A stretch of DNA of 64,000 nt from Eleftheria terrae (GTDB lineage: Bacteria > Pseudomonadota > Gammaproteobacteria > Burkholderiales > Burkholderiaceae_C). The stretch lies in assembly GCF_030419005.1 (NCBI RefSeq), contig NZ_CP106953.1, forward strand, positions 496,001 through 560,000. Reading direction: 5' to 3'. This document shows positions 37,905 through 64,000 of this stretch, piece after piece. Position 1 is the stretch's first letter; each line of letters opens with the position of its first letter. The translations under genes and the position numbers were made by a program. The notes under the pieces were generated by a model. The model did no database searches. It was not told the DNA's origin and saw only the letters and a program-made list of their open reading frames with translations.

Positions 37905-37973
37905 GTCTCCTGCTCCTGTGGGTGGACCAGCGCGGGAGCCTACGTGAGGTCGATGTGTCCAGGCGCAACATTT

Positions 37974-37987
37974 TGGAACCGGTTTCA
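37974..37987 (-). promoter_or_regulatory. candidate LacI/GalR-family operator of the glucanase gene
   Basis: tggaaccggtttca is palindromic except for one pair, with the central CCGG core common to LacI-family operators. It lies 70 bp before the glucanase start codon, a usual place for a sugar-responsive repressor. A half-like ggaaccggt follows near 38013. No LacI-type gene is in the window. Confidence 0.5.
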
Positions 37988-38080
37988 CAGACACGTCTCG
38001 GCAAGCGGAAAGGGAACCGGTGCGAAGCCCGCGGCGCTGGGCAGGAGCTGGTGTAAGCGTCTCCAGCCGACGCCTTGACA

Positions 38081-42027: not shown

Positions 42028-42924
42028 TTACCGCCCGGCCAATGCGTTGAGCTTCTGCATCAGTGACGCGATGCCGCGCGGTGGCAGGAAGGTGGGATTG
42101 TTGCCGCTGAGCACGTCTTTCATCCTGCGCTCGATGTAAGGACGGTATTCCTCGGCATGCGTCATGATGTAGAAGCGCTCGTCCCGTATCGCCGCCAGCA
42201 CCTGCTCGCCGACCGCGCGCGGACTCAGCCCCTGCTTTAGCTGCTCGGCATACCATTCCTGGACCGCGACCGCCACCGGATCGATGGCGGCCGGCGTGCT
42301 GCCGGCCAGCTCGGCCGGCCGGTTGCGCTGCGAGGCCAGGATGTTGGTGTCGACACATCCCGGGCACAGGACGGATATCTTCGGCTTGTAGCGCCCGTGC
42401 CGCAGTTCCCAGTACACCCCCTCCGACAACGCAACCAGCGCAAACTTGCTGACCCCGTACAGCGTGTTGTCGTCGGAGATCAGCCCTGAGGTCGACGCAG
42501 TGTTGACAATGTGGGCTTCGGTTCCCTGCTCGATCATGATGGGCAGGAACGATCGCAGGCCGTGCACTGCGCCCATCAGGTTGACCCCGAGGATCCAGTG
42601 CCAGTCCTGCAGGCTGTTGGTCCAGCTGGGGCCGGCACGCACGCCGACTCCCGCGTTATTGCACAGCACGTGGACCGCGCCGTACCGACGCAGCGTCTGC
42701 CGCGCCAGTTCATCGACCTGATCGGCCTTGGAGACGTCGCATCGGACGGCGTGCACATCGGCCCCCGCGTCGCGCAAGGCCTGGGTCGTCGCATCCAGGG
42801 CCGATGGCTCCACGTCGCTCAACACGACTCGCATGCCCGCTGCGGCGAAGACCTCGGCCATGCCGCGCCCGATGCCGCTGGCCGCTCCGGTGATCACGGC
42901 AACCTTGTTGTTCAGCTCTTTCAT
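42028..42924 (-). CDS. short-chain dehydrogenase/reductase of the polyketide cluster
   Basis: 298 residues, classical SDR: NAD(P) motif TGAASGIGRG, NNAGVG, catalytic Ser in NTASTSGLIS, and Tyr-x3-Lys in LYGVSKFAL. An Asp after the second strand (VLSDVEPS) suggests NAD preference. An extended C-terminus (about 60 residues, YRPYIERRMKDVL) is characteristic of polyketide or steroid-type SDRs. It is the last gene of the minus-strand run, 208 bp after the methyltransferase gene. In the kalimantacin pathway a late SDR oxidises a hydroxyl to a ketone; a similar tailoring role is inferred. ATG 42924 preferred over the frame to 43047. Confidence 0.85.
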   Translation of the reverse strand: MKELNNKVAVITGAASGIGRGMAEVFAAAGMRVVLSDVEPSALDATTQALRDAGADVHAVRCDVSKADQVDELARQTLRRYGAVHVLCNNAGVGVRAGPSWTNSLQDWHWILGVNLMGAVHGLRSFLPIMIEQGTEAHIVNTASTSGLISDDNTLYGVSKFALVALSEGVYWELRHGRYKPKISVLCPGCVDTNILASQRNRPAELAGSTPAAIDPVAVAVQEWYAEQLKQGLSPRAVGEQVLAAIRDERFYIMTHAEEYRPYIERRMKDVLSGNNPTFLPPRGIASLMQKLNALAGR

Positions 42925-43132
42925 ATCGCTCCAGAAGGAAAGTGATGGTGCGACTGCGCCCGGGCAGGACGGCACGCCATCCGTCGCACGCGCCCTTGGC
43001 GTGCCCCGCGGGCAAGGCGGCGAGCCGCACCGTCGTGCCGGTGGCATGGCGGCATGGCGGCTCCTGGCGAGCCTGGCGCCGCCGAGAGCGCGCCAGACAG
43101 GGTTCCGGCAAGCGCCGACATGGGCACGTCCC

Positions 43133-45784
43133 CTAGATGCCCAGGATCATTGCCGCAAAGCGCTGGGCGATGGACGGATCCAGACCATGCCTCGCCGGCT
43201 CGATGGCAAAACGCTGCGCCAGCGCTGCCACCTGGCGGTGTTCGTCGGGATGCTGCAGGCAATGCTGCAGCAGCGCAGCGGTGTGCTGCTCCAGCTCGGC
43301 CTCCGCCGCGACCGTGTGCGGATCGAAGCGCGGCAGCGACGACCATGCGTCCCGCGGCACCGCGTCGGCACGCCATTGGAAGCTCAAGCCGCTGCCGTCG
43401 TGGCGGGCCAGCAGCGGCAGTGACACGTCGCGGCCGACGCGCAGTTCAGGCAACCACTGCAGCCCTTGCTTCCAGTGCAGCGGCATGCCGCTGCCTGGCG
43501 CATTGGAAAGCGAACTCGCGATGTCCATCTGCAGGTCGAACCAGAACAACACCGCGCCTGCCGTGCCGTCGGCGACGCAGGGAACATCGAGCGTCTTCTC
43601 TTCGGGTGTCGGCGTGGCGGTGGAGAAATCGAAGCTGAACACGTCGAAGGGCGCGGTCAAGGCGCGGTATGCGAGGCGTTCCGCGTCGACGTTGATGAAA
43701 GACCGCGAGAACCGATAGGGGTTCAGCAAATTCACGTCGACCCCGAGGACCTGGTCAAGCCGGCACTCGACCACCATCGCCCGTATCCGGGCCCCCATCG
43801 GCAGATAGCCTGCGTGCTCGGTCAGCAGGTGTTCGCGTGCGTGGGCGAGCAGGCGCAGCACCCCTTTGCCGATCAGGCTGCAGTCGAACAGCTCGAACAC
43901 CGCCAGGTCGGCACGCCGGGGGCTGTGGTCAGGCACCCGGACCTCGCGGCAGTCCTGGTGGAGCAGCGTGATGCGGTCCTCCATGCCGTTCAGCCGGATC
44001 ACATCGGCTGCGGCGCCAGCCATCTCCGGGTCGACCTCGCAGGCGAGCACGTGCTGCGCCCCCGCCTCGGCGGCCATCATCGACAACAGGCCAAAGCCCG
44101 CGCCGATGTCCAGCGCCAGTTCGCACGGACGGGTGCCGATGGCACGCAGCAACGACGCCTGGTAGGCGTCATTGCGCCGCCTGTCTCCCAACATCCGCAG
44201 GTACCACGACGGCAAGCTGCCGGTTCGCAACCGCGTCGCGGGCGGCTGCGTCTGCAGGTAAAGGCGGTTCTCGTTGACATGCACCCGCAGCGACAGCGGT
44301 TCGCCTCCCTGCGTAACCTCGATCGGATCGGTGTACTGCACACCCGGCTTGATGCACGACAGCGCGCTGCCGGGCGCGTTGTCGAGGCAGGCTCCGCCAA
44401 GATCGAGTTCGTACCAGAAGATGAGCGCCTCGACGCTGCCCGTGCTGACGACCGGCATCGGCACGTCCCACACCGTCTCGGCGAAATCCTCGAAATCGAT
44501 GCTACCAAGGCGGACGGCCGGCGTCAGCGGCCTCCAATGCTCCGACGACAGCTCCAGCGCCTGCGGATACGGACTCCAGCGGAGCCGCTCGACGGGCTCC
44601 AGGCGATATCCGGTCCCCGGATACACCCACTGGACAGCCATCGCGAACAGCGTCGCCCGCGTCGGGAGCACCCGGACCTGCGCACCGGTGCCGGACCGCC
44701 GATGCTGGCGCACCGCCTTCACAATGCCGGTGCCGAGCAAGGCGTGGTCGAGGTGAGCAAACACCACGGCGTCGCAGTCCGGCTCGGCCAGGCTCGACTC
44801 GTCGGCCGCCACCACCTCGACATGCTGCGTATGGGCCTCGAAGGACTCGCGCCGCTGCTCTTCGGACCACTGGGGTATCTGGGCGCCATGCCGGGCATGC
44901 CACTGCTTCAGCAACTGCTTTTGCAACACACCGCGCGCGATGCGCGCCTCCAGGGGAGAGGCCTCGAGCAGGTGCACCGACGCAGCGCCCTGTTCGAGGC
45001 TCCTTGCGCCCAGCACCCCCAGCTCACTGCCTCGCAACAGCACCCGGCCGCCCGCCAAGGTCGCCAGCGCGCGATCCCACGCGCCCATCCAGACGGGGTC
45101 CTCCAGGCGGACCAGCGTGTGGGCCACGTGGCGCAGCGCGCTGTACCGCGCGAGATGCCGCTTGAGCCCGTTCACCATCGCATCGCCAGCCGAAGCGGGC
45201 AGCGCGGCATCCTCGAACAGCGCGGGGTCGAACGCCAGGTCGGCGGGCGGTGCCGGCCCCTCCGTCCGCACGGCGGCTGGCCCGGCCGGCGCAGGCGGCG
45301 CGTGCGGGGGCGAAGCCGCGGCCCGGTCTCGCACCGCGGCTTCGAGCGACACCACCCGCCGCTGCACATCAGCCTGGAGGCCCTCGATGGACAACACCTG
45401 CCGATACAGCTGGTGCGCGGCGCCCCACTGCTGCAGCCGCTCGTGCACCTCGGCCTGCAGCAGATGGCCGAGCGCGTCGTCAGGGGCCAGCTCGACCACG
45501 TACCGCGCGTCGGCCAGGGCCTCCGTGGCGCGCCCCAGCGCCAGATACACACGCGCCCGATCGCGGCGCCAGCCGGGCTGGTCGGGCTCGGCCTGGACCA
45601 ACTGGTCGTAGTAAGGCAGGGCCAGGTCCGGTCGCCGAGCGCCGAGATGGCGCATGGCCTGGGCTTCGAGATAGGGCGTCGCACGGCGCATCACGTCTTG
45701 CGGCAGGTCCGACAACGCGGCCTTCATGGCGGCGCCGTCGCCGCTGGCCAGGGCGGCGGCGAGGTCGTGGCTCCAATCGTGCAT
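43133..45784 (-). CDS. TPR-containing PRMT-like methyltransferase
   Basis: 883 residues. TPR-like helices at about 20-150 (YLEAQAMRHLGARRPDLAL, ARVYLALGRATEALADARYV), a Pro/Ala linker, then two methyltransferase-like halves as in PRMT7. The first (about 215-500) is degenerate. The second has SAM motif I (LALDIGAGFGLLSMMAAEAG), an acidic motif (VLACEVDPEM) and a double-E-loop-like ELFDCSLIGKG. A beta-barrel-type tail follows. PRMT folds in polyketide clusters may methylate small molecules or proteins. Ribosome site aggaga precedes ATG 45784. A role as O-methyltransferase is only a guess. Confidence 0.72.
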   Translation of the reverse strand: MHDWSHDLAAALASGDGAAMKAALSDLPQDVMRRATPYLEAQAMRHLGARRPDLALPYYDQLVQAEPDQPGWRRDRARVYLALGRATEALADARYVVELAPDDALGHLLQAEVHERLQQWGAAHQLYRQVLSIEGLQADVQRRVVSLEAAVRDRAAASPPHAPPAPAGPAAVRTEGPAPPADLAFDPALFEDAALPASAGDAMVNGLKRHLARYSALRHVAHTLVRLEDPVWMGAWDRALATLAGGRVLLRGSELGVLGARSLEQGAASVHLLEASPLEARIARGVLQKQLLKQWHARHGAQIPQWSEEQRRESFEAHTQHVEVVAADESSLAEPDCDAVVFAHLDHALLGTGIVKAVRQHRRSGTGAQVRVLPTRATLFAMAVQWVYPGTGYRLEPVERLRWSPYPQALELSSEHWRPLTPAVRLGSIDFEDFAETVWDVPMPVVSTGSVEALIFWYELDLGGACLDNAPGSALSCIKPGVQYTDPIEVTQGGEPLSLRVHVNENRLYLQTQPPATRLRTGSLPSWYLRMLGDRRRNDAYQASLLRAIGTRPCELALDIGAGFGLLSMMAAEAGAQHVLACEVDPEMAGAAADVIRLNGMEDRITLLHQDCREVRVPDHSPRRADLAVFELFDCSLIGKGVLRLLAHAREHLLTEHAGYLPMGARIRAMVVECRLDQVLGVDVNLLNPYRFSRSFINVDAERLAYRALTAPFDVFSFDFSTATPTPEEKTLDVPCVADGTAGAVLFWFDLQMDIASSLSNAPGSGMPLHWKQGLQWLPELRVGRDVSLPLLARHDGSGLSFQWRADAVPRDAWSSLPRFDPHTVAAEAELEQHTAALLQHCLQHPDEHRQVAALAQRFAIEPARHGLDPSIAQRFAAMILGI

Positions 45785-45869
45785 GGGTCTCCTGTTCAGG
45801 TGAACGACAGGCACCGGGCGGGGTGGGCGCAGCGCGCCGCCCTGCACCGTCGTCTGTCATCGTGGTCCC

Positions 45870-47240: not shown

Positions 47241-47254
47241 GTCTGCCGATCTCC

Positions 47255-48163
47255 TCATGCGCCCCGTCTTGGCCCGGACGTGGCCCCGACGGAGGGCGGG
47301 TCGTCCTGGCGAATCTGCTGCACCAGCCGGGTGAGCACGTTGCCCGGTCCGATCTCCTTGAACTCCGTCACGCCTGCGGCCAGCAGGTAGCGCACGCTCT
47401 GCGTCCATTTCACCGGGCTGGTGATCTGGCGCACCAGCAAGGACTTGACCACGTCGGCGTCGCCACTGGCGGGATACGGTTCGGCCGTGACATTGGCGAT
47501 CACCGGGATCTTCGGCGCCGCGATGGACACCGGCGCCAGCGCCTCGAAGTACGCATCGGCGGCCGCGGCGACATAACGGGAATGGAACGCGGCGCTGACC
47601 TGCAGCGGCATGAACATGCGCGCACCGGCCTGCTCGAACAGGGGGCCGGCGCGAGCGATGTCAGCCACGGGCCCCGACACCACGATCTGCGAGGGCGAAT
47701 TGAAGTTGGCGACGTCGATGCTGTCCAGCCCGTGCTCCTGCAGCACATGGCCGATCTGCGCCGCGCCGAGCCCGATCACCGCGCCCATGCCGCCGTTCTT
47801 CGCCTGGGCCATCAGCTCACCGCGCCGCTTCACCAGGCGCAAGCCCGTCAGCAGGTCGAAGACGCCGGCGGCCAGCAGTGCGTTGTATTCGCCCAGGCTG
47901 TGGCCGGCCACGAAATCGGGCCGCAGCCCCTGCTGAAGCGCCTTGTAGTAATGCAGGGCGTTGACGACATACAGGCAGGGCTGGGTGTACTGCGTCTCCT
48001 TGAGCTGCTGGTCCGGGTCCTCCAGGCACAGCCGGCGCAGCGAATAGCCGAGGATGGCATCGACATCCCGCTCGACGCGCGAGTACTCCTCGACTTCATC
48101 GAACAGGCCCTGGCCCATGCCGCGTTTTTGCGACCCCTGGCCCGGAAACACGAAAGCAATCAT
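47255..48163 (-). CDS. trans-acting malonyl-CoA:ACP acyltransferase
   Basis: 302 residues, FabD-like. Nucleophile Ser89 in VAGHSLGEYNALLA, the malonate-carboxylate Arg in LVKRRGELMAQA, GGMGAVIG, and catalytic His in VSAAFHSRYV. It supplies malonyl units in trans to the AT-less PKS modules. Strong ribosome site aaggaggaac before ATG 48163, which overlaps the PPTase stop by ATGA. Confidence 0.92.
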   Translation of the reverse strand: MIAFVFPGQGSQKRGMGQGLFDEVEEYSRVERDVDAILGYSLRRLCLEDPDQQLKETQYTQPCLYVVNALHYYKALQQGLRPDFVAGHSLGEYNALLAAGVFDLLTGLRLVKRRGELMAQAKNGGMGAVIGLGAAQIGHVLQEHGLDSIDVANFNSPSQIVVSGPVADIARAGPLFEQAGARMFMPLQVSAAFHSRYVAAAADAYFEALAPVSIAAPKIPVIANVTAEPYPASGDADVVKSLLVRQITSPVKWTQSVRYLLAAGVTEFKEIGPGNVLTRLVQQIRQDDPPSVGATSGPRRGA

Positions 48164-48987
48164 GCGGTTCCTCCTTGTGTAGATGCAGTGATGGAGCTGG
48201 AATGGCAGGACGGGTCGGACTCCCGGCTGATGAGCGCGGTCACGCCATCCCCGAGACCCCATGGCCAGATGCCCCGCACCGACGGCGCCGGGCCGGCGCC
48301 CTGCAGCCGCTCGGCACAGACCGCGATCAGGTAGCGAGGTGCCAGGCGCAGCTGCCAGAACTGCCAAGGCAGCGTGTCGCCAAGTTCGGGGGCCACCGTG
48401 ATCCGGACGCCGTGCTCGTGCGGGAAGTCGAAGCTGAACCGGTCCAGCGGAATCGACAGGCCCATGCCGCGGGCCTTGATGTACGACTCCTTGAAGGTCC
48501 AGTACTCGAAGAAGCGCTCCTGGCGTTGCTGCAGCGGCACCCGGTGCAGCGCCGCCACTTCCGCGGCCGAGAAGTAGTGATCGGCAATCTCGGTGGAGAC
48601 CTTGCGCGCCTGGATGTTCTCCACGTCGACGCCAAGCGCACGGTCGCGCGCCACCGCGAGGACGATCACGCCCTGGGTATGGGAGAGGTTGAACAACAGC
48701 CGCGCATCGCGCGCCTCGTCGTTCAGCGCCGCCGGCCGGCCATAGGCGTTGGCGGTGAAGACCCAGTCGACCGGCTCGACGGGCAGGTACCGCGACAGCA
48801 CCGTGCGCACCAGGGCCCGGGTGACCAGGTACCGGCGCCGGTCGTCAGCGCGGTAGAACCGGCCCTGCTGCAACCGCTCGGCCGGGTTGAGCAAGGCCAG
48901 GAACGCCGCCAAGGTGGCCTCGTCGTCGATGCGGTCGTAGAAGGCGAGCCACAAGTGGATCTCGCCCGGGCCGAGCAGCTGCAGCAT
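48160..48987 (-). CDS. Sfp-type 4'-phosphopantetheinyl transferase
   Basis: 275 residues. Motifs FNLSHTQGVIVLAVARD, LGVDVENIQ (Mg-binding Asp and Glu) and FEYWTFKESYIKARGMGL are the Sfp-type set. It converts apo-ACP domains of the PKS to holo form. Its start lies at the stop of the upstream AT homologue. A C-terminal extension of about 35 residues (SRESDPSCHSSSI) is longer than usual. Confidence 0.92.
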   Translation of the reverse strand: MLQLLGPGEIHLWLAFYDRIDDEATLAAFLALLNPAERLQQGRFYRADDRRRYLVTRALVRTVLSRYLPVEPVDWVFTANAYGRPAALNDEARDARLLFNLSHTQGVIVLAVARDRALGVDVENIQARKVSTEIADHYFSAAEVAALHRVPLQQRQERFFEYWTFKESYIKARGMGLSIPLDRFSFDFPHEHGVRITVAPELGDTLPWQFWQLRLAPRYLIAVCAERLQGAGPAPSVRGIWPWGLGDGVTALISRESDPSCHSSSITASTQGGTA

Positions 48988-48988
48988 G

Positions 48989-49936
48989 TCAGGCCGCCCC
49001 CATGGCCACCAGCGCATTGAAGTTGCGCACGTCCTGGCCGTAGGGCGTGAGCACCATGTGCGCCCGAGACGCCGAGTCGGCGGGCAGGCCGTGCTTCAGC
49101 AGCGTCGACAGGGTGCCGGCCGGGCCAACGTCGATGTAGCGGCAAGGACCTTGCCGCTCCAGCTTCGCGATCGCCTCGCCAAACCGGATCGGGCGGCGGG
49201 CGATGTCCCAGAAGTAGCTGCGACCAGGTCGGACCACCACGTCGGCCTCGCTGCAACACAGCAGCGGCAAGCTGGCCGACCGGCAGCGAACCGACCAGGA
49301 CAAGTCCTCGCAGGCGCTTCGGGCGCTGTCGATCCAGCGCGAGTGGAAGGCGAACGGCACCGGCAGGCGTTGCCAGATGAGGAGGCGCTTGTCGAGTTCC
49401 GCCGCGATCCGGTCCAGCTCGGCACTCGGCGCGGACACCACGAAATGCGAGCTGAAGTTGACCGACGCCAGCTCACTGCGACCCGCCAACCCCAGCCGCT
49501 CGTACAGCGCCGGCTCGCCCAGCACCGCCAGCATGCCGCCGGGCTCGCAGCAGGCTTCGAAGATGCGCGCCTGCTGCACGACCGCCGCAAGCGCGTCGTC
49601 GACCTCCAGGCAGCCGGCCACGGTCGCCGCGGCAAAGGTGCCGGCACTGGCGCCCAGCGTGGCGTCCGGCACGACGCCGGCTGCGATCAGCGCGCGCGCC
49701 AGCGCGTACTCGACCATGAAGAGGGCGGGATGGCTGAGCAACAGGCGGTCGAACGCCTCCGACTTGCGCCTGTCCTCCTGGTACAGCACCTGGACGACGG
49801 AGTGTCCGGTCAGGCGCCGGACCACCTGGTCCATCGACAGCATCGACTGGCGGAACTCGTCGTTCTGCGCCAACAGCGCCTGTCCCATCTGGTAGTACTG
49901 CGATCCCTGTCCCGAGAACATGAAGACGGTTCTCAT
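48989..49936 (-). CDS. AT-like acyl hydrolase (PedC type)
   Basis: 315 residues, AT fold. Nucleophile Ser97 is in the unusual motif LGASAGTFAAA (GHSLG in true ATs) and the His in FAFHSRWIDS is kept. The Arg that binds the malonyl carboxylate is missing: where the cluster's own AT has VKRRGELM, this has VQQARIFE, so Ala123 replaces it. That points away from malonyl transfer and toward hydrolysis of stalled acyl chains, as known for PedC-type proteins. It sits between fabV and the PPTase gene. Hydrolase role is inferred from residues and clade pattern. Confidence 0.8.
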   Translation of the reverse strand: MRTVFMFSGQGSQYYQMGQALLAQNDEFRQSMLSMDQVVRRLTGHSVVQVLYQEDRRKSEAFDRLLLSHPALFMVEYALARALIAAGVVPDATLGASAGTFAAATVAGCLEVDDALAAVVQQARIFEACCEPGGMLAVLGEPALYERLGLAGRSELASVNFSSHFVVSAPSAELDRIAAELDKRLLIWQRLPVPFAFHSRWIDSARSACEDLSWSVRCRSASLPLLCCSEADVVVRPGRSYFWDIARRPIRFGEAIAKLERQGPCRYIDVGPAGTLSTLLKHGLPADSASRAHMVLTPYGQDVRNFNALVAMGAA

Positions 49937-49956
49937 GCTTGCCAGCCCGCCATCGC

Positions 49957-51159
49957 TCAGCTCGACAGGTCGACCAGGCCGTGCATGGGCAGCTCCGCCT
50001 CCACCTCGGCCTCATAGTCAACCCCCGGGACGCCAAACCCGAACAGCTTGAGGAAGTCGGCGCGGAAGCCGTCGAAGTCACTGACCAGGCGGAGGTTCTC
50101 CGTCGTCACCTCCGGCACGAGTCGCTCGACGGCGGCCTGGATGTCGGCGCGCATCTCCTGCTCGTCGACCCGGTTGCGACCCTCGTCGTCGCGGCGTGGG
50201 TCGGCGCTGTAGAGACACTCGCCGAACAGCCGGTGGATCTGCTCGATGCAGCCTTCATGCGAGCCGTCCTGCTTCATCAGCCGGAACAGCAGCGCCAGGT
50301 AGAGCGGCATCACGGGGATCGCGGCGCTGGCCTGGGTCACCACCGCCTTCAGCACCGACACCGCGGCGTCGTAGCCTTCGCCGCGCAGCGCAGCTGCGGT
50401 GCGGTCCAGGTCCTTCTTCGCGGCGCCTATCGTGCCGTCCCAGTAGATCCGGCGGGTGGGGGCGGCACCGACGTAGGTGTAGGCAGTCGTCTTGCACTGC
50501 GGCGCCAGCACACCCGCGGCCGACAACGCATGCACCCAGCGCTGCCAGTCGTCGCCGCCCATCACCGCCACGGTGTCGTCGATCTCTTGCTGCGTCGCCG
50601 CGGGCAAGGTGAACGGTTTCAGGACCTCACGGCCCGGGTCCAGGCCCACCTGCGTCAGGGATTCGCCGATCGGCTTGAGCACCGACGCATGCACCACCCC
50701 GGTGTCCGGGTGCAGGCGGCGCGGCGACGCCAGGCTGTACACGAGCAGGTCGATCTGGCCGAGGTCGGCCTGGATCAGCTCGATCGTCTTGGCTTTCACG
50801 CTGTTCGAGAAAGCGTCGCCATTGATGCTCTTCGCGTACAGGCCGGCCTGCTCGGCCGCGCGGTGGAAGGCCACGCTGTTGTACCAGCCGGCGCTCGCGG
50901 TGCGAGAGTCGCTGGCCGGTTTCTCGTAGAACACGCCCAGCGTGGCAGCCCCGCCCCCGAAGGCCGCGGTGATGCGCGACGCGAGCCCGTAGCCGGTCGA
51001 CGCCCCGACCACCAGCACCCGCTTCGGCGCATCGCCCCCCAGCGGCCCCCGGCTGCGGATGTAGCGGATCTGCTCCTCGACGTTGGCGCGGCAGCCTGCT
51101 GGATGAGCGGTGGTGCAGATGAAACCTTTTACCTTGGGTCGAATAATCATGAAGCTCAT
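49957..51159 (-). CDS. fabV: FabV-type trans-2-enoyl-ACP/CoA reductase, probable self-resistance enzyme
   Basis: 400 residues, FabV family throughout: IIRPKVKGFICTTAHPAGC, nucleotide loop VLVVGASTGYGLASRI, LVYSLASPRR, and the FabV-specific Tyr-x8-Lys (IYWDGTIGAAKKDL). Length is normal. FabV reduces enoyl-ACP with NADH and tolerates FabI inhibitors such as triclosan. Inside an antibiotic cluster an extra enoyl-ACP reductase suggests target bypass; the kalimantacin cluster has a FabI isozyme (BatG) for the same purpose. Start 51159 (MSFMIIRP) or the internal Met at 51150. Confidence 0.92.
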   Translation of the reverse strand: MSFMIIRPKVKGFICTTAHPAGCRANVEEQIRYIRSRGPLGGDAPKRVLVVGASTGYGLASRITAAFGGGAATLGVFYEKPASDSRTASAGWYNSVAFHRAAEQAGLYAKSINGDAFSNSVKAKTIELIQADLGQIDLLVYSLASPRRLHPDTGVVHASVLKPIGESLTQVGLDPGREVLKPFTLPAATQQEIDDTVAVMGGDDWQRWVHALSAAGVLAPQCKTTAYTYVGAAPTRRIYWDGTIGAAKKDLDRTAAALRGEGYDAAVSVLKAVVTQASAAIPVMPLYLALLFRLMKQDGSHEGCIEQIHRLFGECLYSADPRRDDEGRNRVDEQEMRADIQAAVERLVPEVTTENLRLVSDFDGFRADFLKLFGFGVPGVDYEAEVEAELPMHGLVDLSS

Positions 51160-51202
51160 GGGGAAGAGTGGCTGTTGGTGGAAGCTGCCGCGAAAGATCG
51201 AG

Positions 51203-52954: not shown

Positions 52955-53069
52955 GGGCTCTCTCGATGGGTGCAGATGGTCGGCCACCTGGAGCTGCAGC
53001 GTCCCGGTCGCCTCGCGCTTCGCTCGGCCCGACCGCGCGCTGCCACGCGGCTGCGCCGGGCCGTCTTGC

Positions 53070-54592: not shown

Positions 54593-55851
54593 GAGAGCCA
54601 CTCGTACTCGCGGTGGAACTCCTTGATCTCGCGCAGGAACAGGCGTCCCTTGCCGCGCGCCGACTGATAGGCCTCGCCGATGAAGCCGACATCCGGCACG
54701 ACGTTGCGCACGCCGAACCTCACAGCGCTGCTGGCCCGGATGATCGCTTCGTATTCCTCAATGGTCAGGCGGTAGCGCTGGTTCAACTGCTGTTCGATGC
54801 CGAACTGCCGTTGCCGCGCCTGCCCTTCGGAGGTGACGACGCCGCTGTAGAACTCCGAACAGCAGCCCGACCCGTAAGAGAAGCAGCCCAGTCGGCGGGG
54901 CGCGCTGAACTGGCCCTGGTCGATCGTGCTGGCGAGCGACAGGAAGGAGGTCGCGCCCATGATGTTGCCCACCCGCTGGCAGTACTTCAGGCCCGGCATC
55001 ACGCGACGCTGGAAGTCCTCCTCGATCTCGGCCGTCTTGGCCTGCACCATCTTGCGCATCATGGTGCGATGCGCTCCCTTCACCATGCCACCAAACGGCG
55101 TGTGGAAGGTCAGATACTGGAAGGTGTCGCGGTAGTTCGCGTTGCTCACCCGTTTCGCATACTCCAGGTAGGCGTTCTCGCAGCAGTCGAGGTAGGACAG
55201 CAACGACAGGTCGGTGTCACCCGCCTCGCTGTCGGGCATCGGCCGGCAGGTGTCCATCACTTCATAGCCGTAGTAGCCGTTGGCACCCACGTCGACCTGG
55301 AACGCATGCGGCCGGTCGCTGACCAGCAGTGCCACCGCGCCGGCACCGCCGCTCGGCTCGGCAAACGACCAGTCTTCACTGACGCCATCGCCCGCCTCGG
55401 AGACCATGAAGCGCGAGATGTCGGTGGCCACCACCAGGGCCTTGGCACCGGGCGACGTGTTCGCGAGGATGAAGTTGACCGCCATCTGGAAGCCGGCCGT
55501 GCCGGAATAGCAGGCTTGCTTCAGCTCGAACAGCCGGCAGTTCCGATTCAGCCCGAGCTGCTGGTGGATGTAGGTGCTGATCGACTTTCCGAAGTCGATG
55601 CCGGACTCGGTGCAGGTGATCAATAGTTCGATGCGGTCCTTGGCCGCCTGCGGCAGCGCGTCGACGATGGGCTTCGCCGCGTTGACGCCGAACGTGACCG
55701 GGTCCTCGTAAGGCAAGGCGACTGCCTTCTCCTTCATGAGCAGGTTCTCGAACCGCGTGGTGTCGAGTTTGCGATATCGAGCCAGCTCGGCGACGTCCAG
55801 AAACGCGGTTCCGCCGAAGACGTTGAGTGCTTCGATTCCGACCAATGACAT
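54589..55851 (-). CDS. HMG-CoA synthase homologue for beta-branching (PksG-like)
   Basis: 420 residues. Catalytic Cys114 in LKQACYSGTAGFQMAV, Glu82 in TCTESGIDFGKS, His in TFHTPFGGMVKGAHR. It condenses acetyl from the donor ACP onto the beta-keto group of a PKS-bound chain. Start ATG 55851 follows the KS stop by 27 bp. With the ACP, decarboxylating KS and two ECHs it makes a complete HCS cassette. Confidence 0.95.
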   Translation of the reverse strand: MSLVGIEALNVFGGTAFLDVAELARYRKLDTTRFENLLMKEKAVALPYEDPVTFGVNAAKPIVDALPQAAKDRIELLITCTESGIDFGKSISTYIHQQLGLNRNCRLFELKQACYSGTAGFQMAVNFILANTSPGAKALVVATDISRFMVSEAGDGVSEDWSFAEPSGGAGAVALLVSDRPHAFQVDVGANGYYGYEVMDTCRPMPDSEAGDTDLSLLSYLDCCENAYLEYAKRVSNANYRDTFQYLTFHTPFGGMVKGAHRTMMRKMVQAKTAEIEEDFQRRVMPGLKYCQRVGNIMGATSFLSLASTIDQGQFSAPRRLGCFSYGSGCCSEFYSGVVTSEGQARQRQFGIEQQLNQRYRLTIEEYEAIIRASSAVRFGVRNVVPDVGFIGEAYQSARGKGRLFLREIKEFHREYEWLS

Positions 55852-55878
55852 GGCATTGCTCTCCTGAAAAATGGCTGT

Positions 55879-57099
55879 TTACCTGTCGGTGCGCTGCCAG
55901 CACAGCGCGGTGTTGATGCCGCCGAATCCCATGCTCAAGGTCAGCGCCCGTTCGATCCGGTGGGCGACGGGCTGGTGCCGGACCCAGTTGAACGACGCGT
56001 CGATCGGCTCGTCCAGGTTGCGGGTGGGATGCAGGCGCCCGGAGCGCATCTGCAGCAGCGTGGCGATCACCTCGACCAGGCCGGCAGCGCTCAGGCCGTG
56101 GCCGATCAAGGACTTGGTCGCGTTCAGGCGGGCACCCTTCAGCCCGCAGGCCTGCAAGGCCTTCAATTCCGTCTCGTCACCGACCACCGATCCGGTGCCG
56201 TGGGGATTGACATAGTCGATCTGCTCCGCGGTCCACCCGGCCGCCGCCAGTGCGCCCTGGATGGCCGCGATCTCGCCCTCCAGCGACGGGTCGGGATTCC
56301 GATTGCCGTCCATCTCGGCACGCCAGCCGCTCAAGGTCGCATACGCGGGCGCGCCACGTCGCTGGCTCGCCGCGCGCGACTCGATCACGACCGCGCCCGC
56401 GCACTCGCCGAACAGGAAGCCGTCGTGCTGCTGGTCGTAAGGCCGGCAGGCAAGCGCAGGCGCGTCGGCGTAGCGGTCTGATCCCATCGCGCCGAGGGCG
56501 CGAAAGGCCTGGCACTCCCAGAAGGAGAGATCCATCAACGCGCCGATCGCGATGCAGGCGTCCACCTGCCCGCTGAGGACCGCCTGGGCCGCCTGCATGA
56601 TCGCGAGCTGGCCACTCGCCGAGGCGCCGCCCACGGTGTGCGACAGCCCGCGTATGCCGAACTGTGCGGTGCAGAAACCGCAGAGGTCGGTGTCCATGAA
56701 GGACAGCGCGTAGGTCGGTTTCAAGAACTGCGGGCGCTCTCGATAGCGCGCCTGCAACTGCGCGATCTCGCGCTGCTGCACGTTCGAGCCGCCGATCACC
56801 AGCCCGATGCGGCGGCAGTCCACCTCCGACAGCCGGGCCTCGTCCCATGCTTCCTGCAGCACGACCAGCGCGGTCTGTGCCGACAGCGAGGCTGCCCTGA
56901 GGGTCTGCGGCGGGAGGCTGTCCGGAAAGACGATATGGGGGATCTCGGCGCCCAGGTAGGCCGACTCGTGCTGCCGTCCCGGTCGCTGCAGGACGCCAAA
57001 GGCGCTGCGCCCGGCGAGCAGGGCCTCGGTGAAGTCGGCCTTGCCTTGCGCGATCGCCGAAATCACGCCGATACCGGTGACGACGAGTTCAGGCCGCAT
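55879..57099 (-). CDS. decarboxylating ketosynthase of the HMGS cassette (PksF-like)
   Basis: 406 residues, KS fold, but the active-site Cys is Ser160 (HTVGGASASGQLA), while both His remain (NPHGTGSVVGDE; TKSLIGHGLSAAG). Loss of the Cys is the mark of KS that only decarboxylate malonyl-ACP to acetyl-ACP. It therefore supplies acetyl on the donor ACP to the HMG synthase. It overlaps the ACP gene by 11 bp. Confidence 0.92.
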   Translation of the reverse strand: MRPELVVTGIGVISAIAQGKADFTEALLAGRSAFGVLQRPGRQHESAYLGAEIPHIVFPDSLPPQTLRAASLSAQTALVVLQEAWDEARLSEVDCRRIGLVIGGSNVQQREIAQLQARYRERPQFLKPTYALSFMDTDLCGFCTAQFGIRGLSHTVGGASASGQLAIMQAAQAVLSGQVDACIAIGALMDLSFWECQAFRALGAMGSDRYADAPALACRPYDQQHDGFLFGECAGAVVIESRAASQRRGAPAYATLSGWRAEMDGNRNPDPSLEGEIAAIQGALAAAGWTAEQIDYVNPHGTGSVVGDETELKALQACGLKGARLNATKSLIGHGLSAAGLVEVIATLLQMRSGRLHPTRNLDEPIDASFNWVRHQPVAHRIERALTLSMGFGGINTALCWQRTDR

Positions 57100-57337
57100 C
57101 GAGCTTCTTCAGAAAGAGGTCGGCAAGCTCGCCGATGTTCTTGGGACCGAACAGCTCGACGCGCGGCACCGAGAGCGACAACGCTTCCTGAACCAGCATC
57201 GCGATCTCGGCGCGGTCCACCGAATTGGCGCCGAGATCGACCAGCCGGTCGGTCCCGGCGAAGGCATGGTCATCCAGGCCCGGCAGAATTTCGCGTGCCT
57301 TCATCCCGATGAGGTCGATCAGTTCCTGTCTTGTCAT
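57089..57337 (-). CDS. stand-alone donor acyl carrier protein
   Basis: 82 residues. Phosphopantetheine Ser in LVDLGANSVDRAEIAML. The GxNSxDR form is typical of the donor ACP (AcpK/MacpC-like) of beta-branching cassettes and differs from the DSxxxxxW form of the in-line acceptor ACPs in this cluster. It precedes the decarboxylating KS. Confidence 0.9.
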   Translation of the reverse strand: MTRQELIDLIGMKAREILPGLDDHAFAGTDRLVDLGANSVDRAEIAMLVQEALSLSVPRVELFGPKNIGELADLFLKKLDAA

Positions 57338-57437
57338 AAGTACCCTTGCTCAGGTTGTGGCCGGGGCAACTGCCCCGGAGGTGTCATTCACATGTCGCGC
57401 CAAAGCGCACGGCCGCACCGGGCTGCTGCAGCGCCGG

Positions 57438-60400
57438 TCAGGGGTTGGGAGGCGCCGTCAAACAGGTGTCGGCGATGAAATCGACGAAGCTCTGCAGCGG
57501 ACTGATGAAGAACAGGTGCGTCCCTTCGATCTGCTGGTAGCGGCAGCTCGCCGTGGTCATCTGCCGCCACCGTGCGAACAGCATCGGGTCCTTCATCAGC
57601 AGGTCGTCCTTGGCCTGCACGATCTCCAGCGGCGTCGAGATCCGCTTGCCGGGCTCGCTGCGGTACGAGCGGATCAGTGCCACGTCGTTGCGGATGGCGG
57701 CGGGCGACACGATCTTCATGCCCCAGGATTTGGGGAAGATCAGGTTGCTTTCGACGAACAGCTGCTCGAGTTCCTCGTCCGGGATCGAGGTGTCGAGATC
57801 CCGGAACGGTTCGGTGTACTTCAGTGACTCGAACACATCCGGCGTACAGCTCGACGACAGCAACGCCGCCTTGGCCGTCAACCCGTGGCGCTGTTCGAGG
57901 TCGCATAGCACGTCGAATGCGGCGATGCCGCCCATGCAGTGGCCCCAGGCGACGACCGGCTTGTCGAACAGGGCGCGAATGCTGTCGGCGAGATGGCCGA
58001 CCATGGCGCGCCAGTCGGTGTGCTCGGTCGTGCCCACGCCCCACACCTCGACATGCGGCGCAAGCCGGTCCACCCATTGATAACTGCCCTCGCCGTGCGC
58101 GAGGCAGTAGAACAGCAACAGACGTGTCGTCGCGCTGTCGGACGCCCGCAGGCAGCGCACCGTGCGAACGTCGTGCTCGACGGCCCCGGCCAGCGAAGCA
58201 TCACGCTGCAGGGGCGGGACCGCCGCGACCGCCTGCCCGACCGGCCGTGCCGCAGCACTGCTGTCAGCCGCCAATGCCGACATCACACGGGGTGCCGGGT
58301 TCGGGGAGCTCTTCACGACCGCGGGCCGGGACAGCACGGCGACTTCGCCGTCCGTCTCGTGCTGGCCGCGCGTTTCGGCGCGGTCGCCCGCCCGTGGCGC
58401 GGTGGTGCCGGGCGGCCGCGGCGCCGGATGCTGCGGCCCCGCGCCATCCGCGCCGCCGTCATCGCCGAGCTGCTGTGCCAGGTAGTGGGTGAAGCGCCGG
58501 ATGCTGGCATGCTGGTACAGCACCGACGCGGTGATGTTGATGCCATAGCGGCGATTCACCGCCTGTATCCATTCCAGCCCAATGATCGAGTCGACGCCGA
58601 GTTCAGAGAACGGCTTCTCGCAGTCCGCCGCAGTCACTCGCATCAACAGCGTGTCGCTGAGCATGTCGCACAGGTCGGCTTCCAGGCGCGACGTGTCGGC
58701 GCCCGGCGCCGGCGGGCGTGGCACCGGTGCCGCGGCAGGCGGGCCGTCCGCCGTCGCAGGTCGCGGCGGCGCCACCGGCGGCAGCTCGCCAAGCCGAGGC
58801 TCGGCCGGCGTGGCCGACAGGTCCAGCAGGCTGATGCGACGCGGCTTTTCGGCCACCGCGGCCACTGCGGTCGCCACCCGGTCGGTCATACCCGCGGCGG
58901 CGGGCAGGGACTCGGCCTGCCGGTCCGGCGACACCTCGCTGGCGCGGGCGAGGTCGGCCGCGGCCTCGCTGCCCTGCGGCTGCGCCGTGCCGGCGGACGG
59001 CAGCCAGTAGCGCTCCCTGAGGAAGGGATAGGTGGGCAGCGAGATGCGCCGCGGCCGGCCCGCGGCATACAGGCGCCGCCAGTCGATCTGCACCCCGCGC
59101 ACCCACGCCTCGCCCAGCTTCTTCCACCGCTGCTTGCGCACCCACGCCTCGATCAGCGCCCCCACGTCCTCGTCCTGCTCGCTCAGCCAGCCCCCCTCGG
59201 CCGTGCGCTGCACCCGCCCCACCTGCACGTCGGCATTGCGCCGGCCACCGATGAAGTCCCCCAGCGCCTGCACCAGCTGCTCCCGCGTGCGCGCCTGCAC
59301 CGCCAGCCGGTGCTCCATCGCCTCGCGACCGCTCTGCAGCGTGTACAGCATCTGCGCCAGCTGCGCCTCGCTCCACGCCTGCGCCTGCAGGTGCGCCTGC
59401 AGCTGCCGCGCCTGCGCCTGCAGCCGCTCCTCGCTCCTGGCCGACAGCACCAGCAGCCCCGGCTGCGCCTCATTCACCACCACCACCGGCGCCTCGTCGC
59501 GCTCACCCTCCTCAGGCTCCTCGATCACCACGTGCGCATTCGTGCCGCTGAAGCCGAATGAACTCACCGCCGCCCGCCGCGCACCCTGCCCCCCCGTCTC
59601 CCACGGCTGCAGCCGGTCGTTGATGTAGAACGGCCCGCCTTCCAGCACCACGTGCTCGTTCAGCTTCTCGTACTGGATGGTCGGCGGCAGCATCCGGTGC
59701 CTCAGCGACAGCAGCACCTTGATCACCCCCGCCACCCCCGCGGCCGCCAGCAGGTGCCCGATGTTGCTCTTCACCGACCCCAGCGCGCAGTAGTGCCGCC
59801 GCTGCGTGTACGCACCGAACGCCGCCGTCAGCGCCTCCACCTCGATCGGGTCCCCCAGCTGCGTGCCCGTGCCGTGCGCCTCCACCAGCGTGATCGTCCC
59901 CGGGTCGATCCCGAAGCGCTCGTACACCTCGCGCTCCAGCTGCGCCTGCGAGTTCACGCTCGGCGCCGTCATCCCGTTGGTCTTGCCGTCGTGGTTCACC
60001 CCCCAGCCACGGATCACCCCGTGGATCTGGTCGCCCTCGCGCACCGCATCCGCATAGCGCTTGAGCAGCAGCACCCCCACCCCCTCGCCCGGCACAAAAC
60101 CGTCCGCCCTCGCATCGAACGCAAAGCTGCGCCCCTGGCGCGACAGCATGCGCGCCTTGCTCGTCATGATGTGCAGGCTCGGCCCCGTCAGCACGCACAC
60201 CCCGCCGGCCAGCGCCGCATCACATGTCCCGCTCTCCAGGCTGTCGCACGCCAGCGCGATCGCCACCAGCGACGACGAGCACGCCGTGTCCAGCGCCATG
60301 CACGGGCCCCGCAGGTTCAGAAAGTATGAGATCCGCGCCGACAGGATCGACGACGAGTTGCCCGTCAGCACCTGCGCCGTCAGCCCGCTGCCCCCGGGCG

Positions 60401-63400
60401 CATAGCCGTAGTCCCCCGGCCCGCAGCCCACGTACACCCCGCAGCGGCTGCCCGACAGGCTGCGCGGGTCGATCCCCGCTTCCTCGATGCAGCGCCAGCT
60501 GTGCTCCAGAAACACCCGCTGCTGCGGGTCCATCGACATCGCCTCGGCCGGCGATATGTTGAAGAACAGCGCGTCGAACCGGTCCGCTTCCTCCAGGCTG
60601 CCCATCCACTTGCTGTACGTCTTGCCCGGCGCCTGCGGGTCCGCGTCGTAGTGCTCCTGGATCGACCACCGATGCCCCCCTACCTCCGACACGCAGTCAC
60701 GCCCCTGCGCCAGGTTCTCCCAGAACGCCTGCACGTCACCCGCCATCGGGAACGCACCCGACATCCCCACCACCGCGATGCCCTGCCTGCGCACCTCCTT
60801 CGCCTCGCCCCCACGCTCCGCACGCCCGCCAGCCGCCGCATACGCGCCTGCGCCAGCGGCTTCACCTTGTGCCTGGGGGGCCGGCGGTGCCTGCACTGCG
60901 GGCGGCGCGGCCATCGATGCAGCCGACGTCGCCGGCGCCTCGGCCCGGTCGGCGCCACGGGTCGCCGCCGGCCTTGCGGCCGACGCCGAAGCGGGCGCCT
61001 GCCGGTGCTCGCCGGCCCCGGTCGGCGTCGCCAGGCCAGCCACACCGACTGGCGGCAACGGCTCGGCAGCGGTGTGCGCGGTGCCACGTGCCGATGACGC
61101 CACCGCGCGCGTGCGCACCGCATCCTGTGTCAGCAAATGCTTGGCCAGTGCCTTCACATTGGGGTAGTCATACAGCTGGGATGCGCTGAGTGAGGTGTGG
61201 TAGCGCTGATTCAGCTCGCGTATCCAGCCGACGCCGGTGACGGAATCCAGCCCCAGCTCGCTGAACGCGGCCTCGATATCGACGTCATCGCTCTCCAGGT
61301 ACAGCACCTCGGCCAGGCTCTGCGCCAGCTCGACGATCAGGTCACCGGCCGACGGTGCCTGGTGGGCCTGCGAGGCCGGTGGCGCATCCACCGGCGCCGG
61401 CGCGGCGACCTCGTGCAACGGGACGGGTGAGGCCGCCAGCATCGCCGGAGCCGCCGCTTCCGGCGCCGACGCCGACCGAGGCGACATGCCCAGTTCGGCC
61501 AGCGAGATGCCGCGCGGCTTGACCGCGAGCCCCTGGTCGGCCTCGTCCGGCAGGCCGGCGGGCGCGGGCGCCTGAACCGCCAGCGGCGGTAGCGCCGGCT
61601 CGGGCGGCCGGCTCGCCTGCACCGCCCCGGAGGCCAGCGGGGCCGCCGGTTGCGCGTCGAAGGCATAACCGACCGCGATCTCCGGCACGGCCTTGGGCCA
61701 ACAGCGTTCGCGCGCGAACGGATAGGTGGGCAGGCGCAGGCGCCGCGGCCGGCGCGGCCCGTAGACGGAACCCTCGCCATACAAGCGGCGCCAGTCGAAC
61801 GACAGGCCCTGGACCCACAGCTCCAGCAGCGAGGCATAGCGCCCCTGCTCCAGCCAACCGGCGATCAGGGTGTCGAGACCGCCGTCGGCGTTGAGCACCG
61901 CCATCACCTCCTTGTGCCTGCCGATCTCGCCCTGCCAGCACAGCTCGACGTCGGCCTGCTCCAGGCGCCCCTCCAGGTAGTCCGACAGCTTCTGCCGGAC
62001 CTCCTGCACCGAGGTCGCGACGAAGGCCAGGCGGCACTCCATCGCATCGCGGCCCACCTGCAGGGTGTAGGCAAGGTCGACCAGCTGCGCGTCGTCATAC
62101 GCATTCGACGCCAGGTGGTCGAGCAGGCGGCGCGCCACATCCTTCAACCGGTCGGCCTGCTTGGCCGACAGCACGACGATCACCGGCACGCTGCGCCGCG
62201 CCTCGGGCAGCGCAGCCTCCTGCACCGGCGGCTCCTCGATCACCAGGTGGGCGTTGGTGCCGCTGAAGCCGAAGGAGCTGACCGCCGCACGGCGCACACC
62301 TGCCCCGCCCGGCTGCCACTCGCGCGCTTGCGTGTTGATGTAGAAGGGGCTGCCTTCCAGCGTGATGCGGCTGTTGAGCTGCTCGAAATTCACGGTGGGC
62401 GGCAAGGTCCGGTGCCGCATCGCCAGCAGCACCTTCATCACGCCAGCGATCCCGGCTGCCGCCAGCAGGTGGCCGATGTTGCTCTTGACAGAGCCAAGCG
62501 CGCAGTAGTGGCGCCGGTCGGTATAGCGGCGGAACGCCTGCGTCAGGGCCTGCACCTCGATCGGGTCACCGAGGCCGGTGCCGGTGCCGTGCGCCTCCAC
62601 CAGCGTGATGCTGTCCGGCGCGATGCCGAACTGCTCGTAGACCTCCTGCTCCAGCGCAATCTGCGAGGTGACGCTCGGCGCGGTGATGCCGTTGGTCTTG
62701 CCGTCCTGGTTCACCCCCCAGCCGCGGATCACGCCCTGCACGATGTCGCCGTCGCGCAGCGCGTCGGCATATCGCTTCAACAGCACCACGCCGACACCTT
62801 CGCCGGGCACGAAGCCGTCGGCCCGTTCGTCGAAGGTGAAGCAGCGGCCCTGCTTCGACAGCATGCCGGCCTTGCTGGCCATGATGTGCATGCCGGGGCC
62901 GGTCAACACGTTGACCCCGCCGGCGATCGCCAGCTCGCTGCGGCCGAGCAACAGGCTGTCGCAGGCCTGCGCGATGGCGACCAGCGCCGATGAGCAGGCG
63001 GTGTCGAGCGCGAGGCAAGGCCCCTTGAGATTGAGGAAGTAGGAGATGCGGGCGGCCAGGATCGACGGCGCGTTGCCCATCATCCCCTCGGCCGACAGAT
63101 CGGCATAGGCGGCGTAGTCGCCCGACCCGCAGCCGACGAAGACGCCGCAGCGACTGCCAGACAGGCTGCGCGGGTTGAGGCCGGCGTCCTCGATGCAGCG
63201 CCAGCTGTGCTCCAGGAACAGCCGCTGCTGCGGATCGATGACCGCCGCCTCGGCGCGCGAGATGTTGAAGAACTGCGGGTCGAACCGGTCGACCTCGCTC
63301 AGCGCGCCCATCCATTTGCTGTAGGTCTTCTTCGGCACGTCGGGATCGGGATCGTAGAACTTCTCGGTCGACCAGCGATGCGGCGGCACCTCGAAGACGC

Positions 63401-64000
63401 AGCCCTGGCCTTCGGCGAGATGGCGCCAGAACTCGTCGAGAGAGTCGGCATTCGCAAACGCGCCCGACATGCCGATGATGGCGATCGCCAGGTCGGCGCT
63501 CCCGCTTCCGGGTGCTCCCCCGGCAGGCGCGGAGGCGGCCGGCCGATCCTGCCCCGCCGGGGCCGCGGCCGCCGGCCCGGCCGGGGGCGCGACCACCGGC
63601 GGCTGCACCACGGGGGCCGATATCCCCCGGCCGGGCGGGCTGGATATGGGGCGGCTGCCTCCGGCGTACAACGCGCCGACGCGCTCCAGCACGTCCTGGC
63701 TGTCGACGAAGGTCTTCCGGTGCATCGCCACTTCCTGCTCGCAGGCCTGCTGCAGCTGGTCTCGGACCGGCCTGGCGACATGCTCCTTCAGCGCCATCAG
63801 TGCGACACGCGGCGACTGGCACAGCGTGCGCGCCAGTGCCAGCGCATGCGGCAGCACCTCGTCGCGGTGGACCACCGGGAAGGGAATGCGGCGCTGTTCG
63901 AGCTCGGCGCCGGTGAACTGCCGCGCGGTGAACAGGATCTCGTGTGCCAGCCCCGCCCCCAGCTTCTCGGGGAAGATCAGGGTCGCGCCGGCGCCCGGCG
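57438..64000 (-). CDS. trans-AT polyketide synthase, C-terminal part: ECH-KS-ACP-KS-ACP-TE
   Basis: Open to the window edge, so partial at its N-terminus (about 2187 residues visible). Order by position: ECH C-terminal part (64000 to about 63660; PGAGATLIFPEKLG), KS1 (63491-62230; DTACSSA, EAHGTGTG, SNIGHL), post-KS linker to LPTYPFARERCW, ACP1 (about 61380-61130; GLDSVTGVGW), KS2 (60785-59515; DTACSSS, HGTGTQ, SNIGHL), linker to LPTYPFLRERYW, ACP2 (about 58690-58470; GVDSIIGLEW), TE (about 58130-57445). No AT, KR or DH domain lies in these modules. Both ACPs have Trp six residues after the Ser, the beta-branching mark. The TE nucleophile is Cys (WGHCMGG) with Asp (KDD) and His (GTHLFF). Confidence 0.93.
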   Translation of the reverse strand, partial: PGAGATLIFPEKLGAGLAHEILFTARQFTGAELEQRRIPFPVVHRDEVLPHALALARTLCQSPRVALMALKEHVARPVRDQLQQACEQEVAMHRKTFVDSQDVLERVGALYAGGSRPISSPPGRGISAPVVQPPVVAPPAGPAAAAPAGQDRPAASAPAGGAPGSGSADLAIAIIGMSGAFANADSLDEFWRHLAEGQGCVFEVPPHRWSTEKFYDPDPDVPKKTYSKWMGALSEVDRFDPQFFNISRAEAAVIDPQQRLFLEHSWRCIEDAGLNPRSLSGSRCGVFVGCGSGDYAAYADLSAEGMMGNAPSILAARISYFLNLKGPCLALDTACSSALVAIAQACDSLLLGRSELAIAGGVNVLTGPGMHIMASKAGMLSKQGRCFTFDERADGFVPGEGVGVVLLKRYADALRDGDIVQGVIRGWGVNQDGKTNGITAPSVTSQIALEQEVYEQFGIAPDSITLVEAHGTGTGLGDPIEVQALTQAFRRYTDRRHYCALGSVKSNIGHLLAAAGIAGVMKVLLAMRHRTLPPTVNFEQLNSRITLEGSPFYINTQAREWQPGGAGVRRAAVSSFGFSGTNAHLVIEEPPVQEAALPEARRSVPVIVVLSAKQADRLKDVARRLLDHLASNAYDDAQLVDLAYTLQVGRDAMECRLAFVATSVQEVRQKLSDYLEGRLEQADVELCWQGEIGRHKEVMAVLNADGGLDTLIAGWLEQGRYASLLELWVQGLSFDWRRLYGEGSVYGPRRPRRLRLPTYPFARERCWPKAVPEIAVGYAFDAQPAAPLASGAVQASRPPEPALPPLAVQAPAPAGLPDEADQGLAVKPRGISLAELGMSPRSASAPEAAAPAMLAASPVPLHEVAAPAPVDAPPASQAHQAPSAGDLIVELAQSLAEVLYLESDDVDIEAAFSELGLDSVTGVGWIRELNQRYHTSLSASQLYDYPNVKALAKHLLTQDAVRTRAVASSARGTAHTAAEPLPPVGVAGLATPTGAGEHRQAPASASAARPAATRGADRAEAPATSAASMAAPPAVQAPPAPQAQGEAAGAGAYAAAGGRAERGGEAKEVRRQGIAVVGMSGAFPMAGDVQAFWENLAQGRDCVSEVGGHRWSIQEHYDADPQAPGKTYSKWMGSLEEADRFDALFFNISPAEAMSMDPQQRVFLEHSWRCIEEAGIDPRSLSGSRCGVYVGCGPGDYGYAPGGSGLTAQVLTGNSSSILSARISYFLNLRGPCMALDTACSSSLVAIALACDSLESGTCDAALAGGVCVLTGPSLHIMTSKARMLSRQGRSFAFDARADGFVPGEGVGVLLLKRYADAVREGDQIHGVIRGWGVNHDGKTNGMTAPSVNSQAQLEREVYERFGIDPGTITLVEAHGTGTQLGDPIEVEALTAAFGAYTQRRHYCALGSVKSNIGHLLAAAGVAGVIKVLLSLRHRMLPPTIQYEKLNEHVVLEGGPFYINDRLQPWETGGQGARRAAVSSFGFSGTNAHVVIEEPEEGERDEAPVVVVNEAQPGLLVLSARSEERLQAQARQLQAHLQAQAWSEAQLAQMLYTLQSGREAMEHRLAVQARTREQLVQALGDFIGGRRNADVQVGRVQRTAEGGWLSEQDEDVGALIEAWVRKQRWKKLGEAWVRGVQIDWRRLYAAGRPRRISLPTYPFLRERYWLPSAGTAQPQGSEAAADLARASEVSPDRQAESLPAAAGMTDRVATAVAAVAEKPRRISLLDLSATPAEPRLGELPPVAPPRPATADGPPAAAPVPRPPAPGADTSRLEADLCDMLSDTLLMRVTAADCEKPFSELGVDSIIGLEWIQAVNRRYGINITASVLYQHASIRRFTHYLAQQLGDDGGADGAGPQHPAPRPPGTTAPRAGDRAETRGQHETDGEVAVLSRPAVVKSSPNPAPRVMSALAADSSAAARPVGQAVAAVPPLQRDASLAGAVEHDVRTVRCLRASDSATTRLLLFYCLAHGEGSYQWVDRLAPHVEVWGVGTTEHTDWRAMVGHLADSIRALFDKPVVAWGHCMGGIAAFDVLCDLEQRHGLTAKAALLSSSCTPDVFESLKYTEPFRDLDTSIPDEELEQLFVESNLIFPKSWGMKIVSPAAIRNDVALIRSYRSEPGKRISTPLEIVQAKDDLLMKDPMLFARWRQMTTASCRYQQIEGTHLFFISPLQSFVDFIADTCLTAPPNP

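Follow-up and report, generated by a model that had tools for sequence, protein, structure and literature searches.

Our results support a model in which a window of 64,000 nucleotides (C4:496001-560000, C4 being contig NZ_CP106953.1 of a 7.03-Mb host genome in four contigs) holds one part of an orthologous kalimantacin/batumin biosynthetic cluster. The host, a soil bacterium of the Burkholderiales, is very probably Eleftheria terrae ssp. carolina, and its cluster is predicted to make kalimantacin; we put the probability of this reading at about 0.93. The evidence that carries it is the comparison with the bat cluster of Pseudomonas batumici UCM B-321 (NZ_JXDG01000003.1, 284229-345452), in which all 16 genes (Bat1-3 and BatA-M) have a counterpart, with order and direction conserved, at 56-83% protein identity (by blastp for all but BatA). 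What had appeared to be a novel cluster is thus settled as that of kalimantacin, a known anti-staphylococcal antibiotic (batumin), and it gives the complete pathway in a second, diverged version from which conserved features can be read.

A first-pass annotation of positions 42028-64000 had named a short-chain dehydrogenase/reductase (SDR), a methyltransferase, a PfaD-type enoyl reductase, a trans-acting acyltransferase (AT), a phosphopantetheinyl transferase (PPTase), an AT-like protein, FabV, a carbamoyltransferase, a hydroxymethylglutaryl-CoA (HMG-CoA) synthase cassette (HCS cassette) and an AT-less polyketide synthase (PKS), and profile searches of the minus strand recovered all of these functions, far above chance. 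The span that it gave holds within the window, but the window edge is not the cluster edge: the cluster totals 63.7 kb and continues to C4:601692 (window-equivalent position 105692) through three large PKS open reading frames (ORFs) of 5329, 8183 and 2550 residues (Bat3, Bat2 and Bat1), the last reaching that coordinate. Within the longest ORFs, the true starts of the SDR, ECH2, AT and carbamoyltransferase genes were set by where the orthologue alignments begin and are likely to lie at about 42924, 53834, 48166 and 52954, respectively. Gene letters F and L come from a source, A-E, G, H, J, K and M were assigned by function as described in papers, and I and the order within A-E follow gene order. 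The genes are listed below with their identity to the P. batumici proteins; KS and ACP denote ketosynthase and acyl carrier protein.

42028..42924, minus strand: BatM orthologue, late SDR oxidoreductase; 83%, SDR motif S..YGVSK
43133..45847, minus strand: BatL orthologue, PRMT-like methyltransferase with an extra N-terminal TPR; 60% over 708 residues
45870..47408, minus strand: BatK orthologue, PfaD-type trans enoyl reductase; 79%, 686.9 bits, true start probably internal
47255..48166, minus strand: BatJ orthologue, malonyl trans-AT (FabD-type); 76%, 343.4 bits, GHSLGE
48160..49017, minus strand: PPTase in the BatI position; 58%, letter I from gene order
48989..49936, minus strand: BatH orthologue, AT-like protein; 62%, GASAG for GHSxG in both species
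49957..51159, minus strand: BatG orthologue, FabV-type enoyl-ACP reductase, probable self-resistance; 73%, 589.9 bits
51203..52954, minus strand: BatF orthologue, carbamoyltransferase; 78%
53070..53834, minus strand: BatE orthologue, ECH2 of the HCS cassette; 82%
53819..54601, minus strand: BatD orthologue, ECH1 of the HCS cassette; 75%
54589..55851, minus strand: BatC orthologue, HMG-CoA synthase-like; 83%, active site QACYSG
55879..57099, minus strand: BatB orthologue, Cys-less KS; 79%, 619.4 bits (cut-off 445), Ser in place of the catalytic Cys, VGGASASG
57089..57337, minus strand: BatA orthologue, donor ACP; 61/82 residues identical, 100.9 bits (cut-off 79)
57438..64000 in the window (whole gene C4:553438-569427), minus strand: Bat3 orthologue, AT-less PKS of 5329 residues; 61%
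C4:569485-594036, beyond the window, minus strand: Bat2 orthologue, 8183 residues; 62%
C4:594040-601692, beyond the window, minus strand: Bat1 orthologue, 2550 residues; 56%

The C-terminal 2186 residues of Bat3 that lie inside the window comprise KS10, ACP13, KS11, ACP14 and a thioesterase (TE) domain. BatC passes the Pfam cut-offs and scores 231.3 bits with the NCBIfam profile for bacterial HMG-CoA synthase, below the cut-off of 360.35, a score that may fit the cassette form of the enzyme.

Gene content, order, domains, motifs and codes were read directly from both clusters. Bat1, Bat2 and Bat3 align at 56, 62 and 61% identity over nearly their full length, excluding the first 240 residues of our Bat1 and the last 55 of our Bat2, and in a seed-domain search their domain string is identical in the two species save for the Bat1 N terminus. 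Each cluster contains 11 KS, 6 ketoreductase (KR), 3 dehydratase (DH) and 14 ACP domains together with one condensation (C), one adenylation (A), one C-methyltransferase (cMT), one ECH, one TE and one GNAT domain; this search misses the loading ACP and the peptidyl carrier protein, and Pfam shows two carrier domains in our Bat1. The best cross-species match occupies the corresponding position in 10 of 11 KS, 5 of 6 KR, all three DH and 13 of 14 ACP domains. KS11 and KR4 are misplaced because of internal duplication, while ACP4 is a near tie (70 vs 71%). The catalytic motifs of KS and DH domains are concordant in each pair, KS7 being without HGTGT in both species; other KS motifs that seemed missing, such as the second His of KS4, had escaped a too-narrow pattern and were found in both species with a wider one. 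The two clusters further have in common the three PKS/nonribosomal peptide synthetase (NRPS) proteins Bat1-3 with one glycine NRPS module, the carbamoyltransferase BatF with the late oxidoreductase BatM, the complete five-gene BatA-E cassette for beta-branching, and a second enoyl-ACP reductase, BatG, that matches the FabV profile in both species and has a putative role in resistance. A Trp directly after the Ser site of an ACP marks beta-branching, and this residue is present in ACP4-6, ACP11, ACP13 and ACP14, which amount to four places. The Bat2 adenylation code is DILQLGLIW, a glycine code, in joint alignments of both species, and an altered code, DILQMCLIW, proved to be a one-column offset of a pairwise alignment. 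The bat2 code printed in PMC4831472 agrees with DILQLGLIW over the first seven positions. The protein-by-protein comparison that the first-pass annotation had called for thus finds the whole PKS collinear with the kalimantacin PKS in gene order, domain string and KS best-match positions, and it bears out the proposed kinship.

Support for the identity of the host comes from a different locus of the same genome. An eight-module NRPS at C3:468993-495850, with a thioesterase domain at its end, has the adenylation codes DAFTVAAVW, DAWFLGNVV, DAEDIGTVV, DVWHISLVD, DATKVGEVG, DLFNNALTY, DAWFLGNVV and DAWFLGNVV, which presumably read Phe-like, Leu, Lys/Orn-like, Ser, Asn, Ala, Leu and Leu. All eight fit the residue order of clovibactin, described as Phe, D-Leu, D-Lys, Ser, hydroxyAsn, Ala, Leu, Leu (PMC9942206). 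Because this NRPS lies in the same genome, the host can, judging from these codes, very probably be identified as E. terrae ssp. carolina, which produces clovibactin, and its GyrB (identity of 96% with that of Aquabacterium sp. A7-Y and of 95% with that of Caldimonas brevitalea) upholds the earlier placement of the host among the betaproteobacteria. E. terrae ssp. carolina is described as having yielded kalimantacin and as carrying a kalimantacin-like gene cluster whose silencing revealed clovibactin (PMC12560086), and clovibactin, teixobactin and kalimantacin are all listed for E. terrae (PMC11565595). That kalimantacin-like cluster is very probably the very one described here, recognized through the clovibactin NRPS elsewhere in the same genome; hence our cluster, genuine and complete, has very probably already been published: its kind is known, and so, probably, is its occurrence in this organism. 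It is unlikely that the host is instead another, unreported species of the clade carrying both clusters: database proteins that match our BatF completely and our BatL at 98% do indicate that a near relative or another assembly exists, but the clovibactin order is matched in 8/8 codes, GyrB falls within the Caldimonas/Aquabacterium group, and the four contigs of the genome agree with the long-read assembly described for that strain. Two other arrays, C4:415420-439304 and C4:703726-737244, were considered as clovibactin or teixobactin NRPS and rejected on their adenylation codes. The host genome as a whole has 91 condensation-domain matches, with NRPS ORFs of up to 11,173 residues at the end of C4.

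The first-pass annotation had expected a related but distinct antibiotic on the strength of three differences from kalimantacin clusters, namely FabV instead of FabI, an added methyltransferase and an internal PPTase. All three occur in P. batumici, so none of them sets the two clusters apart: its BatG is also FabV (610.8 bits, cut-off 400), the methyltransferase bears the name BatL in UniRef, and P. batumici has its own PPTase in the corresponding position. Kalimantacin itself is the product that the assembly line predicts, and the claim of a distinct antibiotic finds no support. A more substantial difference is found in Bat1. The upstream region of P. batumici bat1 holds no trace of the roughly 240 extra N-terminal residues of our protein by tblastn, and a stop lies eight codons before its start. 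In our Bat1, residues 4-369 match loading domains of known structure, 7ucl and 6b39 (AprA methyltransferase 1), and the region is hit by AprA_N, winged-helix and methyltransferase profiles; the AprA loading module of PDB 6b39 aligns to residues 5-319, ours being embedded in a kalimantacin Bat1. The S-adenosylmethionine (SAM) motif seems degenerate, with HLGCRDG for the DMGCGDG of 7ucl, and we therefore take this AprA-like region as a probable relic, retained here and trimmed in Pseudomonas. Were its C-methyltransferase still active, the starter would be larger than acetyl and the product a starter-extended kalimantacin homologue, a related but distinct carbamoylated antibiotic whose methyltransferase the Pseudomonas form would have lost by truncation. 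The structural and profile matches, and the missing first 240 residues in P. batumici, speak for such a product, but we consider it very improbable in view of the degenerate motif, the single weak match beyond residue 369 (473-520, 17 bits), the unchanged order of everything downstream and the report of kalimantacin itself from the probable host. We take the Bat1 N terminus to be a variable rather than a defining feature of the cluster.

An independent recruitment of the accessory genes and the PKS modules, drawn from trans-AT clusters of no common kinship, has next to no chance of being right, for although the HCS cassette, PfaD-type reductase, FabV and carbamoyltransferase are each known in other contexts, we reject such a convergent origin on the strength of the collinearity with P. 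batumici, in which 16/16 genes keep their order, KS domains are orthologous position by position, and BatF and BatL have their nearest named relatives.

In the route that we propose for kalimantacin from domain order and the published pathway (PMC5089993, PMC4831472), the loading module with its GNAT domain and module 1 (KS-KR-cMT-ACP) would generate 3-hydroxy-2-methylbutanoyl, the NRPS module of Bat2 would add glycine, and ten AT-less modules would elongate the chain, with BatJ loading malonyl in trans, BatA-E placing beta branches at four sites and BatK reducing one double bond. The TE would then free the acid, BatF would carbamoylate it, and BatM would oxidize the 17-OH to the active ketone. 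The GNAT domain carries the motifs GVTRC and HxxHGA in both species, and we take these to be marks of decarboxylation. On this reading the acetyl starter might arise by decarboxylation of malonyl and not, as in the published route, from BatH (PMC4831472).

The product would inhibit FabI, and the FabV-type BatG would shield the host, whose genome also encodes FabI. Kalimantacin is described as a FabI inhibitor (PMC5089993); for BatG, protection of the Pseudomonas producer and complementation of fabI in E. coli have been reported (PMC6804068). BatG of the P. fluorescens cluster is called a FabI isoform (PMC5628338, PMC6804068), whereas its namesake in P. batumici is FabV-type; we found no joint mention of BatG and FabV in the literature searched. 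The only FabV of the host genome is the BatG of the cluster. The family that includes FabI has 52 matches in this genome, the best two of which, at C2:92636 and C3:422690, were checked and are FabI over curated cut-offs, giving a count of at least two. Given these, a FabV-type BatG fits self-resistance by a non-target enzyme, and by analogy with the Pseudomonas producer we infer that BatG protects this host against its own product. The gene preceding the second FabI-type enoyl-ACP reductase (C3:422690-423406) resembles acetate kinase by eye.

Several observations weigh against this overall reading. We infer kalimantacin as the product, and E. terrae ssp. carolina as the strain, from the genes and not from metabolites of this genome, and no teixobactin-order NRPS was noticed in the arrays read, which are a part of the NRPS of the host. 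The 240 additional residues of Bat1 depart from P. batumici, and so does ACP12, which has Leu where Bat3 of P. batumici has the flag Trp. As for resistance, the P. batumici genome encodes another FabV away from the bat cluster (contig C57:9135-9842), so that BatG is not its sole FabV. Lastly, the TPR domain of our BatL (one TPR profile over the cut-off and two just under it) has no counterpart in P. batumici BatL, in which a Pfam search finds no TPR.

Many of the listed relatives of BatL carry a TPR domain. At E 0.001 there are 193 such relatives, some named from Massilia, Telluria, Paucimonas and Lysobacter, and the passages on the pathway in the cited papers assign BatL no step in kalimantacin synthesis. 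BatF and BatL were searched widely, the other accessory proteins being compared with P. batumici alone, and for both the nearest named homologue is that of P. batumici (78% and 60%, respectively); five unnamed database proteins (P0003-P0007) are 64-74% identical to BatF. Scanning species-genome contigs with BatF gave 14 loci, with P. batumici at 78% and the next at 60%. The search for BatF relatives covered 9 genomes of the genus, 399 of the family and 369 of the class, the host counted in each, family and class being samples and the class level being queried with P. batumici BatF. None of the other genomes (8, 398 and 368, respectively) yielded a BatF of at least 60% across most of its length; the best matches there reach 52% in the genus, 49% in the family and 55% in the class, and one 51-residue fragment reaches 61% (genome G167). 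From this distribution the cluster looks acquired in this lineage. Its guanine-plus-cytosine (GC) content of 70%, compared with 64-67% in the flanks, and three transposase or integrase genes upstream, beyond Bat1 (C4:603875-607020), fit acquisition. Outside the cluster, the window also contains a GH16 glucanase with a CBM6 domain (36462-38138).

Both clusters contain near-identical paired segments within their PKS genes. In ours, C4:577700-579656 and 555002-556948 (KS5 and KS11) are 98.8% identical over 1957 bp, the copy in the window lying at 59002-60948, and C4:583465-584778 and 575425-576738 (around KR3 and KR4) are 99.6% identical over 1314 bp. The homologous pairs within P. batumici are 99.0% identical over 1868 bp and 99.6% over 1265 bp, whereas across species the same domains show protein identities of only 85-86% (KS) and 70% (KR). 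Since identity within each cluster is so high despite this divergence, the simplest reading would be recurrent, parallel gene conversion in each lineage. As a process, gene conversion in trans-AT ketosynthases is probably not new, and these segments make a clean case in which to study it in assembly lines.

Finally, we note how the cluster compares with known systems. The kalimantacin cluster of P. fluorescens BCCM_ID9359, likened to ours by published description and not by sequence, is reported to have 16 ORFs, Bat1-3 and BatA-M, with the same functions (PMC5628338, PMC5089993). The P. batumici cluster differs from ours in a GC content of 57% as against 70%, in a Bat1 without the AprA-like N terminus and in a BatL without TPR, and the two have no flanking genes in common at E 1e-20 (in a comparison that covered 2 kb past BatM on our side and 12 and 6.5 kb in P. 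batumici). Alike in both are the 16 genes with their order and direction, the order of PKS domains, the glycine code, the KS and DH motifs and the two duplicated PKS segments.

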